Positions 350 to 11,372 of a stretch of 64,000 nucleotides of DNA are shown here, in pieces. Both the position numbers and the translations under genes were made by a program. The notes beneath the pieces were generated by a model. That model saw only the letters and a list, made by a program, of their open reading frames with translations. It did no database searches and was not told the origin of the DNA. Numbering within the stretch: the stretch's first letter is position 1; each line of letters starts with the position of its first letter. Source of the DNA: Pseudomonadota bacterium (GTDB taxonomy: Bacteria; Pseudomonadota; Gammaproteobacteria; Burkholderiales; SG8-39); assembly GCA_947455195.1 (NCBI GenBank), contig CANGMI010000001.1:372001-436000 (forward strand), read 5' to 3'.

Positions 350-1849
350 TTACTCGACGAAGGCTTCCTCGCGGGTCTTCTTGAACGCCGGTGCAAGCAT
401 CAGGCCCATCAGGAGCAGGGTCACCAGCAGCAGCCCGGCCGAGATCGGACGCGTTGCAAAGACCGTCGGATCACCGCGCGAGAGCAGCATGGCCCGGCGC
501 AGGTTCTCCTCCATCATCGGCCCGAGAATGAAGCCGAGGATCAACGGCGCCGGCTCGCACTCGAGTTTCACCGCGATGTAGCCGAAGAGGCCGAAGAGCG
601 AGGTGATGAGGATGTCGAAGTTGGAGTTGTTGATGCTGTACACGCCGATGCAGCAGAAGAGCAGGATCGCCGGGTAGAGCAGGCGGTACTGCACCGACAG
701 CAGTCGCACCCAGATGCCGATGAGCGGCAGGTTCAGGATGACGAGCATCAGGTTGCCCACCCACATCGAGGCGATCATGCCCCAGAAGAGTTCGGGACGC
801 TCGGTCATCACCTGCGGTCCGGGGGCGATGCCCTGGATCATCATGGCACCGATCATCAGCGCCATCACCGGGTTGGACGGAATGCCCAGCGTGAGGAGCG
901 GAATGAACGAGGTCTGGGCACCGGCATTGTTGGCAGCCTCAGGCGCGCAAACGCCGCGGATGTCACCCTTGCCGAACTGGGAGGCGTCCTTGACGATCTT
1001 CTTTTCCATCGCGTAAGCGGCAAACGACGCGAGCAGTGCGCCACCGCCCGGCAGGATCCCGAGGAAGGCACCCAGACCGGTTGCACGAACCATCGTCCAG
1101 GCACAGGTCTTGATGTCACCCCAGGTCGGCAGAAGGTTGGTGACCTTGGCGGTGAACACCTCGCGGTGCTCGGCCTGCTCGAGGTTGCCGATGATTTCGG
1201 CGAAACCGTACATGCCCATCGCCACGCCGACGAAGCCGATACCGTCCGAGAGTTCGGAGATCGAGAAGTTGAACCGTGCGATGCCCGAGTTGACGTCGGT
1301 GCCGACCAGACCGAAGAGCAGCCCGACGATGGTCATGGCGATCGCCTTGACGAGCGAGCCGTGCGCCAGCACGGTCGCCGCAACCAGGCCGAGAACCATC
1401 AGCGAGAAGTACTCGGCAGGGCCGAACTTCAGGGCCACTTCGGCCAGGGGCGGTGCGAACAGCGCGATGATGACCGTGCCGACGCAACCGGCAAAGAACG
1501 AACCGATGGCGGCGATGCCCAGTGCTGCACCCGCACGACCGTTGCGGGCCATCTGGTAGCCGTCGATGGTCGTCACCGCCGACGAGGACTCGCCGGGCAG
1601 ATTCACCAGGATGGCCGTGGTGGAGCCGCCATACTGCGCACCGTAATAGATACCGGCCAGCATGATGAGGGCCGAGATGGGCGGCAGGGTGAAGGTGACC
1701 GGGAGCAACATCGCGATCGTTGCCACCGGGCCGATGCCCGGCAGGACGCCGATCAGCGTACCAAGCAGCGCACCGAAGAAGCAGTACAGCATGTTGAGCG
1801 GCGAGAGTGCAACGCCGAACCCGATGCCAAGGTTGGTGAAGATATCCAT
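350..1849 (-). CDS. tctA: Tripartite tricarboxylate transporter, TctA-type permease
   Basis: 499-aa polytopic protein with GVLPGIGPVATIAMLLPVTF, YYGAQYGGSTTAILVNLPGE and GILPGGGALLASFAAYAMEKK motifs. Confidence 0.93.
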   Translation of the reverse strand: MDIFTNLGIGFGVALSPLNMLYCFFGALLGTLIGVLPGIGPVATIAMLLPVTFTLPPISALIMLAGIYYGAQYGGSTTAILVNLPGESSSAVTTIDGYQMARNGRAGAALGIAAIGSFFAGCVGTVIIALFAPPLAEVALKFGPAEYFSLMVLGLVAATVLAHGSLVKAIAMTIVGLLFGLVGTDVNSGIARFNFSISELSDGIGFVGVAMGMYGFAEIIGNLEQAEHREVFTAKVTNLLPTWGDIKTCAWTMVRATGLGAFLGILPGGGALLASFAAYAMEKKIVKDASQFGKGDIRGVCAPEAANNAGAQTSFIPLLTLGIPSNPVMALMIGAMMIQGIAPGPQVMTERPELFWGMIASMWVGNLMLVILNLPLIGIWVRLLSVQYRLLYPAILLFCCIGVYSINNSNFDILITSLFGLFGYIAVKLECEPAPLILGFILGPMMEENLRRAMLLSRGDPTVFATRPISAGLLLVTLLLMGLMLAPAFKKTREEAFVE

Positions 1850-1853
1850 CTTT

Positions 1854-2633
1854 CTAGCTCCCGAGACCGATCTTGCGGCAGGCTTCGTCCATCACTTCCG
1901 GACAGGCATTGAACGGCAGACCCAGCCCGTGACCGAAGATGACCACGGCGAAGACGCCGAGAATGGCAAACAGCGCGCCGATCTCGACACCCTTGATCTT
2001 GCGGCCAAGGCCGATGCCGAGCCCGATGATGATCAGGAGCGACAAGGCGCCCGACTTGCCATTGCCGATGAAGCCCGACAGGCTGGCCATCAAGGCGGCG
2101 AACACGCCATAGAGAGCAAGGCCGAACGCGATGCTCTTGGGCTGATCGGACCACTTGAAGTCTTCACTGCCAGCACGCGCGATGACGGTGAGCACCGCGG
2201 TCGCGAAGAGCAGGCCGATAGGCTTCATGAGGAAGGCGAACACGACAACCGCAGCCAGCACGATGTAGAGCGCCGGCGTGCCGAAGGAGGCCTGGATCAG
2301 CACATAGGTCACACCCATCGCGAGCTGGTACAGGAAGTCGTTCTGACCCTTCAACGCATAGGTCACGACACCGGCGATGATCGCAGCCACGAAGAGAAGC
2401 GGACGAAACTGCACCGCCCGCAAGCTGCTCTTCTCGCCACTGGCGAAGGACCTGAAGAACACCCAGGCACCCAGGAGGGCAAGCAGCCCGCCGAGCACGA
2501 CCGGGAAGTAAGCAGGCCCCATTCGAACCGCCGTGCCCATGTTGTAGTTCTTGAAGGCCACGCCGGAGAAGCCCAGGCCAAGAGCCAGAAACATCAGCCC
2601 CGCCCAGAAGTCCTTGCCGTTCCTGATTTGCAT
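1854..2633 (-). CDS. tctB: Tripartite tricarboxylate transporter, TctB-type small permease (start at MQIRNGKDFWAG)
   Basis: Four to six hydrophobic helices, MQIRNGKDFWAGLMFLALGLGFSGVAF N-terminus, directly upstream of tctA on the same strand. Confidence 0.85.
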   Translation of the reverse strand: MQIRNGKDFWAGLMFLALGLGFSGVAFKNYNMGTAVRMGPAYFPVVLGGLLALLGAWVFFRSFASGEKSSLRAVQFRPLLFVAAIIAGVVTYALKGQNDFLYQLAMGVTYVLIQASFGTPALYIVLAAVVVFAFLMKPIGLLFATAVLTVIARAGSEDFKWSDQPKSIAFGLALYGVFAALMASLSGFIGNGKSGALSLLIIIGLGIGLGRKIKGVEIGALFAILGVFAVVIFGHGLGLPFNACPEVMDEACRKIGLGS

Positions 2634-2893
2634 CAATCCCCCTTTGCTGCTCGATTCACGCTTGACTGGTCGCGATTGGTGGTTCACTTCGGATGGCGCA
2701 GTGTGCGCCAACAAGGCCCTGAGCAAGACGTCTGCGCACCCCATGAGAGAGCGTCAGGCAATCGACGGGCGGCGTATTCTGCCATAGGGTTTCGGCGAAA
2801 AGTACGTCTGCCCACGATGCCGCAGCGCACCAATGACTTGACATTCGTTACACGCCCGGACGCGCCCGCACCGTGCCGGCGCGACGCCCTCTT

Positions 2894-4735
2894 TCAGTGC
2901 CCCCGCATCGTCACCGCGCGGGCATCGGCACCGAAGTAGCGCTCGCAGAAGAAGCACCGCCCTTCAGGCAACCAGCCGGGCGCGCGATAGAACCGATCGC
3001 GGATGAGACGCAGCACCCCATCGCGGTACGAGTCAAACCGGAAGTGCTCGCCGCGAATGATGTGAAAGGTGACACCTCGCACGTCGACACTCGAGTACTC
3101 GACCGAGTCGAAGTACGGCTCATACTCGGCGGGGGGCGGCGGCGTCTTGCGCAACACGAGGATGTCACGACCGTCGAGCACGCGAAAGTCGTCGAACACG
3201 TCCTGCTGCCGGCCATGTGCCGAGCCGGCACCGAACACGAGAAAGTCGAGCGAACGCAGATCGAGCGGCGCCGGCGCGACAGGTCGGGCGTCCGGCGCCG
3301 TTCCCGCGACAGGCTCGGCGTGTCCCCCGGCACGCATCGCCGCGCGCCGCGCCTGGTAGCCGAGCGTGACCGAATTGGAGTAACCATCGGTGGCAAAGAC
3401 ATGGCTGCCTCTCCAGGGCGCCAGGGCCGCGAGCAGTTCGTCGGACTTCACGGTGAGCACGAGGCCATCGTAGATGCGGTAGCCCCTCCAGGTTTCGAGT
3501 GGCATCAGAGCCAGCACGGCGAATACGAGCGCGTGAACGCCCGACAGCACCGCGAGGTAACGGACATCGGTGCGCAGGGCACGCTCGGGCAGACAGAAAG
3601 CGGCGAGCACGAAGGCCAGCGGGGTGAACGCAAGGGGCCAGTGCAATCCGACCGAACGCACGGTCGATACCAGACCGAGCACGATCACGGGGACGAGGAA
3701 GGCACAGGCGGGCAACCAGCGGGCCGCATCATCGCGCAGGGTCGGGCTCGCAGGCGGTCGCGGGCCGGACGCAACTCGGCTGCGCACCGCCTCGCTCGCA
3801 CGACGTGCGAGGCGCCACAGTGCAAACGGACTGGTGAGATAGATGATGCACACCAGATAGGTCGCGACCAGCGAAGGCGACAGACGGACATTGTCGTGCC
3901 GGTTCTCGAAGTTGAACAGGACATTGAGCCAGCAGTGCTCGTAGTTGCCCCAGGCATTGGCGAGGGCCCATGGCAGGGCAGCCGCGGTCACGATGAAAAA
4001 GCCGGGCCAGGCCCGAGCGCGCCGCGCCGCGCTCAGGGCGAAGACAAGGTAAGCGAGCCCGAGGAGCACGGCGAAGTACTTCGACATGAACGCAGCGCCC
4101 AGCAACAGGCCAGCCACAGCGTGCCATCGATTGACCGCCGCACCGCCCGCCTCCACCCTTTGCACGGCCGTCTGGTAGGCAAGCAGGGACGCCATCGAAA
4201 ACAGTACCAGCGGCGTGTCGGTCGTGGTGAGCACGTTGAACAGTTCGGCCGGCACGAGCAGGACGCACAGCGCCGCCAGATCGGCCTGCACCGGTCCTGC
4301 GATTCGCGCCATGCGACGCACCATCCACGCCACGGCGAACACGAGCAGGAGCGCCGGCATGCGCAACCACCACTCGGCCATCCCGAGCGCCACCACCGGG
4401 GCCATGAGCCAGCCGACCATCGGCGGGTGATCATAGTAGGCAAGGGCCGGATAGGCCCCCCAGTAATAGTAGTAGGCCTCGTCGCCGGTAAACGGCAGGA
4501 AAAAGGCGACCAGCAGACGCAACGCCAGAACGATGACCAGCGTCCCGCGCAGCACGCGCGCCGTGGCAGCCGGCGATTCGGCGCCTGGCGCCGTGATCAC
4601 CGGGTCGTCCGCGATCGCTGCCTCGGACTCACCGGCCTCCCCGGATTGGCCGCGCTCACTCGACTGCGGCCGCGAGCGCAAGGCGCCGGGCACGCACCGA
4701 CTCGGCCAGCGCGTGGAGCGCCGGCACGGTGTCAT
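2894..4735 (-). CDS. GT39-like membrane glycosyltransferase (ArnT/PMT-type); start uncertain (GTG near 4600 also possible)
   Basis: Polytopic protein with LPFTGDEAYYYYWGAYPALAYYDHPPMVGWLM, the DE and YYDHPP motifs of ArnT/PMT-like enzymes. Confidence 0.8.
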   Translation of the reverse strand: MTPCRRSTRWPSRCVPGALRSRPQSSERGQSGEAGESEAAIADDPVITAPGAESPAATARVLRGTLVIVLALRLLVAFFLPFTGDEAYYYYWGAYPALAYYDHPPMVGWLMAPVVALGMAEWWLRMPALLLVFAVAWMVRRMARIAGPVQADLAALCVLLVPAELFNVLTTTDTPLVLFSMASLLAYQTAVQRVEAGGAAVNRWHAVAGLLLGAAFMSKYFAVLLGLAYLVFALSAARRARAWPGFFIVTAAALPWALANAWGNYEHCWLNVLFNFENRHDNVRLSPSLVATYLVCIIYLTSPFALWRLARRASEAVRSRVASGPRPPASPTLRDDAARWLPACAFLVPVIVLGLVSTVRSVGLHWPLAFTPLAFVLAAFCLPERALRTDVRYLAVLSGVHALVFAVLALMPLETWRGYRIYDGLVLTVKSDELLAALAPWRGSHVFATDGYSNSVTLGYQARRAAMRAGGHAEPVAGTAPDARPVAPAPLDLRSLDFLVFGAGSAHGRQQDVFDDFRVLDGRDILVLRKTPPPPAEYEPYFDSVEYSSVDVRGVTFHIIRGEHFRFDSYRDGVLRLIRDRFYRAPGWLPEGRCFFCERYFGADARAVTMRGH

Positions 4736-5741
4736 CCCAGCCGATGCAACCGTCGGTGATGCTCACCCCGTAGGCGAGGGGCTTGCCCGCCACGAGATCC
4801 TGGCGTCCCGGATTGATGTGCGATTCGAGCATCAGGCCAACGATACGCTCGTCGCCACCGGAGACCTGCCCTGAGATGTCGGCAACCACCTCGACCTGGC
4901 GCCGGTAGTCCTTGCGGCTGTTGGCGTGCGAGCAATCGATCATGAGGCGCTGTGCAAGGCCGGCACGGGCCAGATCGGCACACGCGGCCGCGATGCTTGC
5001 GGCGTCGTAATTGGGCTCCTTGCCACCGCGCAGGATGATGTGACAGTCCTCATTGCCCTGCGTGGCCACGATGGCCGAAATGCCATTCTTGTTGATCGAC
5101 AGGAAGTGGTGGGGCGAACTCGCCGCCTTGATCGCATCGACCGCGATCTTCGCGTTGCCGTCCGTGCCGTTCTTGAATCCCACGGGGCAGGACAGACCCG
5201 ACGCCAGTTCGCGGTGCACCTGTGACTCGGTGGTCCGTGCCCCGATGGCACCCCAGCTCACCAGATCGGCCAGATACTGCGGGGTCTGCGTGTCGAGATA
5301 CTCGACCCCGGCCGGAACGCCAGCCGCGTTGATGTCGAGCAGCAGGCGGCGGCCCAGCCGCAGGCCTCGGTTGATGTCGAAGCTGCCATCGAGGCCCGGA
5401 TCGTTGATGAGACCTTTCCAGCCGACGGTGGTGCGGGGCTTCTCGAAGTAAACCCGCATCACCACCTCGAGATCGGCCGCCAGTTCGCGACGCAGCGCAA
5501 GCAGACGCGAGGCGTACTCGAGCGCCGCCTGCGGATCATGAATCGAGCAGGGTCCCACCACGACCAGCAAACGGTCATCGGCACCATGGAGGATGCGGTG
5601 GATGGCCTGACGAGTGCCGAAGACCACATCGCGCACGGCCGCCGTTGCAGGCAACTCGCCGATGACGTGTGCGGGCGGCGACAGTTCCATGATGGCGCGG
5701 ATGCGCACGTCATCGACCGGGCGAAGGGAGGTATTCGACAT
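4656..5741 (-). CDS. aroG: 3-deoxy-7-phosphoheptulonate (DAHP) synthase, class I
   Basis: VGPCSIHDPQAALEYA, YFEKPRTTVGWKGLINDP, GVEYLDTQTPQYLADLVSWGAIGARTTESQ, DCSHANS motifs. Confidence 0.95.
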   Translation of the reverse strand: MSNTSLRPVDDVRIRAIMELSPPAHVIGELPATAAVRDVVFGTRQAIHRILHGADDRLLVVVGPCSIHDPQAALEYASRLLALRRELAADLEVVMRVYFEKPRTTVGWKGLINDPGLDGSFDINRGLRLGRRLLLDINAAGVPAGVEYLDTQTPQYLADLVSWGAIGARTTESQVHRELASGLSCPVGFKNGTDGNAKIAVDAIKAASSPHHFLSINKNGISAIVATQGNEDCHIILRGGKEPNYDAASIAAACADLARAGLAQRLMIDCSHANSRKDYRRQVEVVADISGQVSGGDERIVGLMLESHINPGRQDLVAGKPLAYGVSITDGCIGWDDTVPALHALAESVRARRLALAAAVE

Positions 5742-5809
5742 GGCACAGACTCCGATGAAGCCTGTCATTGTACTGAATCGGCGCGACGCTCGGCCTGCAC
5801 AGCCCCCAC

Positions 5810-8248
5810 TCAGGGCGTGACGAAACCCGCACGCTGGTAGGTCGGGGCACTGTCCGGCCCGGTCAGATGCTCGATGAGCTGTCGGGCCAGTGCCGGTTCG
5901 CCCGACGTGTTCGGTATCGCAGCCACGTAGGCCGTGTAGCGCTGCAACGCCGGCGGCAGTTCACCCGCAAGAACGACACCGGGCACCGGCAAAATCTCGG
6001 TGACCTGATGAATGCCCACCTCGACCTCACCGCGTCCGACCGGGGCGACCACGTACCCCCCTGTCCCCAGGGTCGTACGCGGCGCCATCTGGGCCGCGAT
6101 GCCCATCGTTTCAAAGGCCTCCACCACGAAACGACCACTGGTTCCGATGGCCGGGTCGATGTACACGACCGATTTCGATCGCAGCAGGAAATCGCGCAGC
6201 GCAGCGGGTGTGCTGATGTCAGGGCGTGCGGCCTTCTCGCTCACGGCAACGCCCACCCCGACCCGCGCGATCGGCACGGCACCTTCGGGGCGCAACCGCC
6301 CCTGGGCTGCCAGTGGCGCGAGTGCCTCGGGCGTCATGATGAGGAGGTCGAAGTTCTCGCCACGCCCCAACCGCTGGGCAATGGCACCCATCGGCGCAAA
6401 CTCGAGTTGCAAGGTGGCGCCGGTGCGCTTTGCCCACGCCTCGGCCAGCGGCGCTACAGCCGCCTTGGCCGCCCCGCCGCTCACCACCCGCAGCACGCGC
6501 GGCATGGCAATGCGTTCCAGATCGGCCCATGCCGCCACCGAACCATGGCCACCGGCAAAGCGCAGGGGCTGCAGGCCGTAGCGCTTGACGGCTGCCAGGA
6601 CAGCCGCCTGACCCGGGGTGGGCGTTGCACCCAGTGCATCGCGACCAGGACTCCAGATGTCACTGACGAACCCCAGACGCGCATGCGGAACCCAGGCCAT
6701 GAGCGTCGAAGCCGCGTGCGGATTGTCGATCAGGCAGAACGCCACTTCACGTCTCGTGTCGGAGAGGGTGAACCGCTCGGACACCTCGGTGACGCGCGGT
6801 TCCAGCAGCGCCGGGCTGGTCGGGCTGAGCCGGTGTGGACGGGCGATGCGGGTGCGCCAGTAATCGCCCGCGCCCGCGCCGACGAGCAACGTGGCACCAG
6901 CCTGAAGATACGGCCTCAGACCGGCCACATGATCCACATGATGATGCGTCAACGCCAGATAGCGTACCGGCTTGCCCGGAAAGCGTTGACGCAGCGCCTC
7001 CAGAAGCCAGAGCGAATAAGCGTCGGACACCGGCGCGTCAACCGCCACCAGGAAGTCATCCATCTCGACCACCAGCGTGTTGTGCGATGCCCCCTGGGTC
7101 ATGAAGACGCCCTCGGCGAGCGATTCGAGCCGAAGCCCTCCGGAGAGGGCCGGATCCCACGCCATTTCGTCGGTATCGAGGAGCGTGCCCATGTTGCCGC
7201 GGCGGATGAACCACTGCCACGGCACCTCATCGGCGCTCCCCCTCAACGAGGAGCCTGCCCGCCCGGCAGGCCTGGGCAGGTCGGACCGGCCAGCACCAGG
7301 CACGTCAGCAGCGGCAAAGAGTTCCTCTTTCACCGGTGCCCCCAGCACGACCGAATTCAACTGGATATCAGCCACAGTCAGGTCGTTCAAGCGATAGATG
7401 CGTCGATGGGCGACCTTGATCGCCCCGACCGTGCGCCAGTCGGACAGAAGCAGATCGAAGGCCGAGTCACCCTCGACCGGGTCGTCGTCATCGGTACGCA
7501 CACGAGCGGGCATACCGCTGGCACCCTCGAAGAACACGGTGAAATGACCATGGGGCGAGCGATAGCGCAGGCGCTCGAAGGCAACACCCTCGATGGTCTC
7601 GGGTGCCAGGACCACCACCTGCGCACGATCACGAGCCATCTCGGCCAGAAGCATGGGGCTCGCACGCAGGGCCTCGCGAGCGTAGGTTCGCAGACGTCGC
7701 TGGGCCATCGGATGGACCGGAGGCGATGACTTGAGCGCGGCACCGGTGAGGCCGGTGGAATCGATGCCCAGCACGACGCCTCGATCCCTGACGGTGACTT
7801 CGCTGAAGCGATATTCGCGCGGGCCGGGGTAGATCAGCTGGCGCACCCAGTCGGTACGCATCGCGTGGCGCTGGGGCAGCACGGTCTCGGTGAACGTGGA
7901 CTTGCCCACCGATCGGGGCTCGCCACCGGGCACGATGGCCTGCTGCGGCTCCCAATGCGCGGCCGATCCTGAAACGACCAGCGTCTGGGTCCGTGCCGAC
8001 TGCCAGGCGGTCGCTCCACCCGTCGCGTCAATCGCGCGATCGAGAATGCGATTGACCGACGCCGGGGCGCTTTCCCAGGGGGCCAGAGTCGTGGTGGCAA
8101 TTCCCTGCGGGGACAGCATGATCGAGCTCGCGGCGACGAGGCCTGCGACGAACCGGGCAAGCCGCGGCAGTCGAAGCGACCCGACAGGCGTCGCGGCGCC
8201 ATCGCCTGCCCCGTGCCCCGTGCAGCGTGCCACGACCTCGCAGCTCAC
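5810..8248 (-). CDS. Exported fusion protein: LolA-like N-terminal region, MBL-fold metallo-hydrolase domain, C-terminal ModA-like periplasmic substrate-binding domain
   Basis: 812-aa uninterrupted ORF. Signal-like N-terminus; MBL metal motifs LALTHHHVDHVAG (aa 431-443), NPHAASTLMAWVPHARLGFVSD and AGGHGS; then VLRVVSGGAAKAAVAPLAEAWAKRTGATLQLEFAPMGAIAQRLGRGENFDLLIMTPEAL...GTSGRFVVEAFETMGI, typical of ModA-type PBPs. GTG start overlaps the upstream stop. Confidence 0.75.
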   Translation of the reverse strand: MSCEVVARCTGHGAGDGAATPVGSLRLPRLARFVAGLVAASSIMLSPQGIATTTLAPWESAPASVNRILDRAIDATGGATAWQSARTQTLVVSGSAAHWEPQQAIVPGGEPRSVGKSTFTETVLPQRHAMRTDWVRQLIYPGPREYRFSEVTVRDRGVVLGIDSTGLTGAALKSSPPVHPMAQRRLRTYAREALRASPMLLAEMARDRAQVVVLAPETIEGVAFERLRYRSPHGHFTVFFEGASGMPARVRTDDDDPVEGDSAFDLLLSDWRTVGAIKVAHRRIYRLNDLTVADIQLNSVVLGAPVKEELFAAADVPGAGRSDLPRPAGRAGSSLRGSADEVPWQWFIRRGNMGTLLDTDEMAWDPALSGGLRLESLAEGVFMTQGASHNTLVVEMDDFLVAVDAPVSDAYSLWLLEALRQRFPGKPVRYLALTHHHVDHVAGLRPYLQAGATLLVGAGAGDYWRTRIARPHRLSPTSPALLEPRVTEVSERFTLSDTRREVAFCLIDNPHAASTLMAWVPHARLGFVSDIWSPGRDALGATPTPGQAAVLAAVKRYGLQPLRFAGGHGSVAAWADLERIAMPRVLRVVSGGAAKAAVAPLAEAWAKRTGATLQLEFAPMGAIAQRLGRGENFDLLIMTPEALAPLAAQGRLRPEGAVPIARVGVGVAVSEKAARPDISTPAALRDFLLRSKSVVYIDPAIGTSGRFVVEAFETMGIAAQMAPRTTLGTGGYVVAPVGRGEVEVGIHQVTEILPVPGVVLAGELPPALQRYTAYVAAIPNTSGEPALARQLIEHLTGPDSAPTYQRAGFVTP

Positions 8249-8745
8249 TTTGCCACCGCCGGCATGGTGGGTTCCGCGGGCGCCGCCCCGGGGGCGACGG
8301 CGCCCGTAGCGGGCGGTGTCGCCGGGGCGGGCCCGGGCAGTGGCGTTGCGTCATCGATGGCCCGCACGCCCGTCACGAAATAGGAGGTATCGCCAAAGCA
8401 GCTGCCGGGTACGCCGACCTTTTCCTCGTACATCAGACTCACCCGCCGCCCGCTCAGTCGGTTGATGGCATCGGCAATGGAGTCCTCACGCACCGTGAAG
8501 GCGAACTTGTCGGGCACGGTGCCGGGCACCGTCACCATCGCCATCTCGCCCTCCCAGGTCTTGCAGACCCAGCCCTTGCGCGAGAGCTTCTGGACCCAGC
8601 CGGCACGTTCTCCGACCGAGAAACTCCAGCTGAGCACCGCCCACGTGTAGGCCACCATGAGGACGACCAGAAACGAAACCCCGACGAGCAGCCAGCGCCG
8701 CAACCGCCAACCGATGGATTGCCCTGATGCCGAGACTTCACTCAT
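8245..8745 (-). CDS. Uncharacterised single-pass membrane protein with a Pro/Ala-rich C-terminus
   Basis: 166 aa, one N-terminal TM segment (WLLVGVSFLVVLMVAYTWAV), 11 nt downstream of alaS and overlapping the next gene's GTG. Confidence 0.7.
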   Translation of the reverse strand: MSEVSASGQSIGWRLRRWLLVGVSFLVVLMVAYTWAVLSWSFSVGERAGWVQKLSRKGWVCKTWEGEMAMVTVPGTVPDKFAFTVREDSIADAINRLSGRRVSLMYEEKVGVPGSCFGDTSYFVTGVRAIDDATPLPGPAPATPPATGAVAPGAAPAEPTMPAVAK

Positions 8746-8756
8746 GGTCTGCCCCC

Positions 8757-11372
8757 TCAGAGCCTGGACTCGACCCAGGCTGCCACACTCGCGAGCGCCG
8801 CCGGCAAGGCAGCGGCATCACTACCGCCGGCTTGCGCCATGTCAGGTCGCCCGCCGCCCTTGCCACCCACCTGGGTGGCCACCATGTTGACCAGTTCACC
8901 GGCCTTGACCCTGGCCGTGAGGTCGGCCGTGACACCTGCCACAAGGCTCACCCGCTCCCCCTCGACCGCAGCCAGCACCACGACCGCCGATTTCAGCTTG
9001 TCCTTCACCTTGTCGAGCGTCTCGCGCAGGACACGCGAGTCGGCACCGGCCAGCGTCGCGGCCAGCACGCGGACACCGCGCACGGTGAGCGCGGTATCGG
9101 CCAGATCATCGCCCTGTGCTGCCGCGAGCTTCGATTTCAGCCGCGCCAGTTCGCGCTCGAGCGTACGCATGCCCTCCATCAACTGCCCCAGGCGCTGCGG
9201 CATTTCGACCGGACTCGACTTGAGCAGTTGCGCCGCCTCGGCCAGCTGGCCGGCCTGGGACTGCACATGCACCAGAGCCCCTTCACCGGTCACCGCCTCG
9301 ACCCGACGAATGCCGGCCGCAACCCCCGATTCGGCCACGATCTTGAAAAGGCCGATGTCACCGGTACGACGCACGTGGGTACCACCGCACAGCTCGGTGG
9401 AATACTCGCCCATCTGGATCACCCGGACCTCGTCGCCATACTTCTCGCCAAAGAGCGCCATGGCGCCAGTACGAATGGCCTCGTCGTATTTCATGACCCG
9501 GCTGGAGACCTCGACATTGCGGCGGATTTCGCGATTGACCCTGGCCTCGACCGCCAGCAGTTCATCGGCGGTCAGTGCCTCGCCATGCGAGAAGTCGAAG
9601 CGCGTGCGCTGGGCATCGACCAGCGAACCGCGCTGATGAACATGGGTGCCCAGTACATCGCGCAACGCCGCATGCATGAGGTGCGTTGCCGAATGGTTCC
9701 AGGCGGCTCGGCTGCGAGCATCGAGATCGACCCGGGCCAGCACGCTCTGCCCCAGGCGCAGACGGCCCGAGCCGACGGTGCCGTGGTGCCCGAACACATC
9801 CGCTTGCAGCTTCTGGGTATCGACAACGACCAAGGACCCCTCGGGGCCACACAGTTCGCCGCGATCGCCCACCTGCCCGCCCGACTCGGCATAGAACGGT
9901 GTGCGTCCGAGCACGACGACACCGGCCTGACCGCTCAGCAGTTCCTCGACCGCCACCCCCTCATGGTAGAGCGCCACCACGGTGCCCTCGGACTCGAGAC
10001 TCTGGTAGCCGACGAACTCGGTCACGCTGCCAGCGTAGTCCAGCGCGGTTGCCATGCGGAACTTGCCGGCCGCGCGGGCCTGCTCGCGCTGCCGGTTCAT
10101 CGCCGCCTCGAACCCTGCCATGTCGATCGTCACGTTGCGCTCACGCGCAATGTCGGCGGTGAGATCAACCGGGAAACCGAAGGTGTCGTAGAGCTGAAAC
10201 ACCGTCTCGCCATCAAGCGTGTGATCTTCGCGCTGCAAGGCGGTCTCGAGAATCCGCATGCCGTTGTCGAGCGTCTCGGCAAAGCGCTCCTCCTCGGCCC
10301 GCAGCACCTGCTCGACGCGGCTGGCGGCCTCGACCAGTTCAGGATAGGCCGCGCCCATGACGCCGACCAGATCGGCCACCATGCGATGGAAGAAAGGCTT
10401 CTTCTGACCCAGCTTGTAGCCATGGCGGATCGCCCGCCGGATGATCCGGCGCAATACATAGCCACGGCCCTCGTTGCCGGGTATGACCCCATCGACGATG
10501 AGGAACGAGCAGGCACGAATGTGATCGGCCACAACCTTCAGGGAGTTGTCGCCCAGATCAGCCGCCCCGGTTTCACGCGCGGCCGCGCGAATGAGCGCCT
10601 GAAAGAGGTCGATGTCGTAATTCGAGTGGACATCCTGCAGGACAGCGGCGATACGCTCCAGGCCCATGCCGGTATCGACACAGGGGCGCGGCAGCGGGCT
10701 CATCACCCCCTGCTCGTCGCGATTGAACTGCATGAAGACGAGGTTCCAGATCTCGATATAGCGATCGCCATCGGCCTCAGGCGAGCCGGGCGGACCACCG
10801 ACAACATCGGGGCCATGGTCGTAGAAGATTTCCGAACAGGGTCCGCACGGGCCGGTGTCGGCCATCTGCCAGAAGTTGTCGCTCTGGTACGGCATGCCAC
10901 CGGGCTTGTCGCCAATGCGCACGCAGCGCTCGGGGGGCACGCCGATCTCGCGGGTCCAGATGTCGTAGGCCTCGTCGTCTTCGTGGTAGACGGTAGTCCA
11001 CAAGCGCTCGACCGGAATGCCGTAGACTCGGGTGAGCAGTTCCCACGCGAAGCGAATTGCATCGCGCTTGAAATAATCACCGAACGAAAAGTTGCCCAGC
11101 ATCTCGAAAAACGTATGATGGCGCGCGGTGTAGCCGACGTTTTCCAGATCGTTGTGCTTGCCACCCGCCCTGACACTGCGCTGAGCCGTCGTGGCCCGCC
11201 GGTAACCCCGTACTTCCTTGCCGAGAAATACCTCCTTGAACTGCACCATGCCCGAGTTGGTGAACAGAAGCGTCGGATCATTGCCCGGCACGAGCGGGCT
11301 CGAGGGCACGATCGTGTGTCCTCGCTCGGCGAAGAACTGGAGGAATTTCGAACGAATCTCGGCTGATGTCAT
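8757..11372 (-). CDS. alaS: Alanyl-tRNA synthetase
   Basis: [75 protein letters not shown] motifs. Confidence 0.98.

Follow-up and report, generated by a model that had tools for sequence, protein, structure and literature searches.

The open reading frame considered here appears to join an exported hydrolase to a periplasmic binding protein, which raises the questions of whether it is a real gene and what the joined parts might do together. In the window, by which we mean the whole stretch of 64,000 nucleotides of DNA that was analysed, the frame runs uninterrupted on the minus strand from 8248 to 5810 (812 codons), beginning with GTG at 8248 and ending in a stop codon at 5812-5810. An initial annotation had reported an open frame at 5810-8248 with no strand given; the frame was recovered, on the minus strand. 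The start and the stop of the 166-codon gene upstream share 4 bases (GTGA), and the start is supported by the presence of the same 4-base overlap (ATGA) in G001, a second species of the genus. The upstream gene (8245..8745, minus strand) encodes a 166-aa probable membrane-anchored protein, for which a family search gave nothing above cut-off; it travels with the MBL (metallo-beta-lactamase) gene in both fused genomes and in G118, lying between alaS and the MBL gene. Two syntenic anchors flank the locus on the minus strand: alaS upstream (8757..11372) and a DAHP synthase gene downstream (4656..5768; Pfam DAHP_synth_1 E 3.5e-96), about 40 bases past the fusion. Two adjacent genes at 350-2744 (minus strand), judged by eye to encode TctA- and TctB-like transporter subunits, are kept in downstream synteny in G001, G002, G024 and G012.

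Because relatives carry two separate genes and the two fused genomes are apparently drafts, an assembly or sequencing artefact joining two genes, a worry raised by the initial annotation, had to be weighed. G001, an independent assembly, contains the entire fusion, 85% identical and free of internal stops, and the two alleles align without indels over residues 60-812; for practical purposes the G001 fusion refutes this reading. The ratio dN/dS between the two fused species (Nei-Gojobori) was 0.13 for the LolA-like domain, 0.067 for the MBL domain and 0.083 for the SBP (substrate-binding protein) domain, below 0.14 in each and thus also against an artefact, compared to 0.74 for a fast-evolving linker at aa 316-340 (7229..7303, minus strand; 40% identity). 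All three domains are under purifying selection. The junction at aa 582-585 (6494..6505, minus strand), where comparison with the separate genes places the MBL end against the start of the mature SBP, reads DLERIA-MPR-VLRVVSGG in the window and DLERIA-ASR-LLRVVSGG in G001, with no remnant of an SBP signal peptide in either species. Separate MBL proteins stop within a few residues of position 581, the Acidobacterial ones extending somewhat beyond, and separate SBPs start with a signal peptide. A one-base error could not delete that signal peptide and is therefore ruled out as the source of the fusion, since loss of the leader takes more than a frameshift. A separate translation start at the junction was rejected as well: the ATG at codon 583 in the window is GCG in G001, and the product would be leaderless. 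Homologues split into two ORFs, named beforehand as a possible sign of local error, do occur in relatives; as these are full separate genes, with their own leaders on the separate SBPs, they are no sign of an artefact. We regard such an artefact as extremely improbable.

Pfam searches with the fusion protein recovered SBP_bac_11 at residues 586-809 (E 1e-34) and Lactamase_B at 410-510 (E 3e-7), with no match in residues 1-375. The protein opens with a signal-like hydrophobic segment at about aa 25-53 (8090..8176, minus strand), read by eye; its N-terminal counterpart in G001 begins MKYWAAAAGVVLAAAALAPASGA. The segment has no lipobox, unlike that of separate lipoprotein-type MBL relatives in genus g5. 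Behind it lies a predicted LolA-like half-barrel domain at about aa 62-311 (7316..8065, minus strand), delimited with an AlphaFold2 model and Foldseek. The model, built from five sequences, had a pLDDT of 60 overall and 70-90 across most of the core (a full-length model from 4 sequences, at pLDDT 40, was too poor for use). Foldseek matched it to LolA3 (E 1.3e-8, probability 1.00) and the LolA superfamily structure 3buu (E 7e-7), and the matches, which also include VioE, LolA and RseB, span E 1e-8 to 1e-4. The domain thereby shows the half-barrel match to solved LolA-type structures that marks the LolA superfamily fold. The TM-scores were low (0.34-0.55 in the four best matches, from a medium-confidence model), and the LolA-like label is therefore a statement of fold class only. 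Assignment to LolA, the lipoprotein carrier, by sequence failed: hhalign gave a probability of 5% over 20 columns and no Pfam family matched, so that the likeness was recovered by fold alone. The LolA-type call in the initial annotation is thus upheld by fold comparison, though sequence profiles could not confirm it.

The MBL domain occupies about aa 374-581 (6506..7129, minus strand), as indicated by Pfam Lactamase_B and by profile matches to the PDB. The Lactamase_B profile scored 30.9 bits against a cut-off of 22.7 and was matched by 9 of 9 aligned sequences. In this alignment, which includes two Acidobacteria, all metal ligands are invariant: H435, H437, D439 and H440 of the HHHVDH motif (HxHxDH; aa 435-440, 6929..6946), H511 of NPH (6716-6718), D530 of VSD (6659-6661) and H568 of GGHGS (6545-6547), all on the minus strand. 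The four motifs had been named, with HHHVDH at 435-440, before this analysis and were found in place; together they supply the HxHxDH plus His, Asp and His ligands by which the MBL superfamily is recognised. The domain is probably a two-metal hydrolase, presumably zinc-dependent. A profile search of the PDB with the MBL domain returned B1 MBLs and alkylsulfatases; because these matches mostly span the region around the HxHxDH motif, the substrate cannot be read from them. A true subclass B1 or B3 beta-lactamase conferring antibiotic resistance was not supported, with 26.9 and 11.1 bits against NCBIfam cut-offs of 200 and 240. Another multi-part exported MBL architecture was observed in a Pseudomonadales MAG (L024, 3128-6097, plus strand), where a frame of 989 codons encodes an MBL domain, a second domain that is MBL-like and, at its N-terminus, a domain that may be related.

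The remainder of the protein, aa 586-812 (5813..6493, minus strand), is an SBP_bac_11 periplasmic binding domain. PF13531 scored 120.6 bits against a cut-off of 25 and was covered from position 1 to 226 of 227, and the domain, which retains full SBP length and the conserved core, shares 63% identity with the stand-alone SBP that G002 encodes at this locus. The initial annotation had called this region ModA-like. As a description of fold the term stands, ModA being of the same fold class, and the SBP family profile matches solved ModA structures at E 5e-17. Molybdate binding does not stand: the ModA equivalog TIGR01256 gave 24.5-28.9 bits against a cut-off of 62.5, whereas the real ModA of the same genome, encoded elsewhere (G000:C7), scored 220 bits. 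The molybdate ligands of ModA are S12, S39 and Y170 (PMC8895017), which in the fusion are replaced by A, M and Q. Given the score below cut-off, the genome's own ModA at another locus and the replaced ligand residues, we assign the domain to SBP_bac_11 and not to ModA.

SBP_bac_11 proteins usually serve ABC transporters. Together with the intact length and core of the domain, this partnership would suit a sensor or scavenger whose binding domain hands the product of hydrolysis to a distant transporter of the ABC or another type. The loci examined, where neighbours were mostly judged by eye, showed no recognisable gene for an ABC permease or ATPase next to either the SBP or the fusion, and the tether to a 570-aa enzyme could hinder docking. 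We consider this role quite unlikely.

The separate relatives of each part suggest how the fusion arose. Three genomes (G002 from the same genus, G024 and G012 from other genera) have the SBP as a gene of its own, flanked by alaS and DAHP synthase, and in three genomes of family f3 (G192, G231 and G148) it follows alaS. A stand-alone LolA-like/MBL gene neighbours alaS in G118, from the same family as the fused genomes; in G226 and G436, which belong to other families, it is encoded on the alaS strand, less than about 2.5 kb downstream. As the separate parts each lie repeatedly beside alaS, the fusion probably joined neighbours in place. Within the SBP tree, the fused domain is sister to the G002 SBP (SH-aLRT 99), and no further close copy of either part was found in the fused genomes. 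The simplest history would be an ancestral order alaS - MBL - SBP - DAHP synthase, followed by differential loss and by in-place fusion in one lineage; its intermediate is one that we infer, since no genome searched contained the two genes adjacent and unfused. In several of the order's families, the region after alaS repeatedly houses either the MBL gene or the SBP gene (L061, L091, L092, L067, L069, L070). In G118 (L061, 624-1730, plus strand), a convergent gene judged by eye to be AAA+ ATPase-like sits between the MBL gene and DAHP synthase, in the slot held by the SBP in other genomes.

This distribution also bears on whether the two functions are coupled. Genus g5 has the MBL and the SBP gene on different contigs, which means that the two are not bound to act together; in family f46 separate copies of both are numerous, again apart. 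An accidental, tolerated fusion, in which tethered domains keep separate and unrelated jobs, could account for this, and would fit the MBL-SBP linker, which is just a few residues long. Against it speak the repeated, independent occurrence of each gene next to alaS in different families and the strong constraint under which the fusion has persisted since the two species diverged. We hold a tolerated fusion to be somewhat unlikely.

Two of about 1,036 genomes searched contained the fusion, the two being related species. The total is made up of 98 genomes from the family, 399 from the order, 369 from the class and additional sets, which partly overlap; wider searches through the order and class, and through the families to which G226, G436 and G192 belong, yielded no further fusion. 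Because the sets are samples, searched at sensitivity limits chosen search by search, the fusion may occur elsewhere. No relevant description of an MBL + SBP_bac_11 architecture emerged from literature searches. The architecture had been flagged as unusual, and the counts agree; relatives keep separate genes, in line with the statement that the two parts are normally separate polypeptides, and profile matches and fold comparison bear out one exported protein that comprises LolA-like, MBL and periplasmic-binding modules. The fusion is genuine and rare, and newly combines families that are known but uncharacterised.

Overall, we favour, with a probability of roughly 60%, a real in-place fusion yielding a secreted polypeptide in which a putative two-metal hydrolase is joined to a binding module that captures its substrate or product. 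On this account, in a single lineage of the genus an exported LolA-like/MBL hydrolase gene would have been fused in frame to its neighbour, an orphan SBP_bac_11 gene, in the interval from alaS to DAHP synthase, with loss of a stop codon and of the second signal peptide. The resulting protein, in which one secreted chain unites a probable two-metal hydrolase with a binding module, would act in the periplasm, where the LolA-like half-barrel may hold a substrate that is lipophilic or bulky, or position it for the MBL site, and the binding domain may capture the substrate or the released product. Since the hydrolase and binding functions are joined into one gene in two related species, they probably work together, and the anatomy and gene-neighbour history support a functional link between MBL and SBP. 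A more specific version, self-contained hydrolysis and capture in which the LolA-like groove presents a lipophilic substrate and the fused orphan binding domain retains the product, is tentative and in our estimate doubtful; if true, the separate MBL and SBP families beside alaS would form one uncharacterised pathway. Natural fusions are strong hints of two proteins acting on the same thing. This one links two uncharacterised exported families, each recurrently encoded beside alaS in this order, and supplies a concrete pair for assay, with the SBP ligand as candidate hydrolase substrate or product.

Several known systems resemble the fusion in part. Separate LolA-like + MBL exported proteins of about 530 aa, found in the same order and in Acidobacteria (e.g. 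L063, L064, L003 and L022), share all metal ligands and 42-45% identity (Acidobacteria 37%) over its first 580 residues, but they end before the SBP domain and several are lipoproteins with a lipobox, which the fusion is not. Separate orphan SBP_bac_11 proteins (G002, G024, G012 and G192) are 50-63% identical to the binding domain and hold the same position after alaS, but have their own signal peptide and no enzyme domain. The N-terminal domain shares its fold with LolA, LolA3, RseB and VioE, but differs from LolA in that its half-barrel is attached to an enzyme and shows no match at the sequence level. Lastly, the exported chorismate mutase-cyclohexadienyl dehydratase fusions of beta- and gamma-proteobacteria are likewise very rare, and genes for a transporter and a substrate-binding protein adjoin them, but their domains are unrelated to those described here and both are demonstrated enzymes (PMC10520331).
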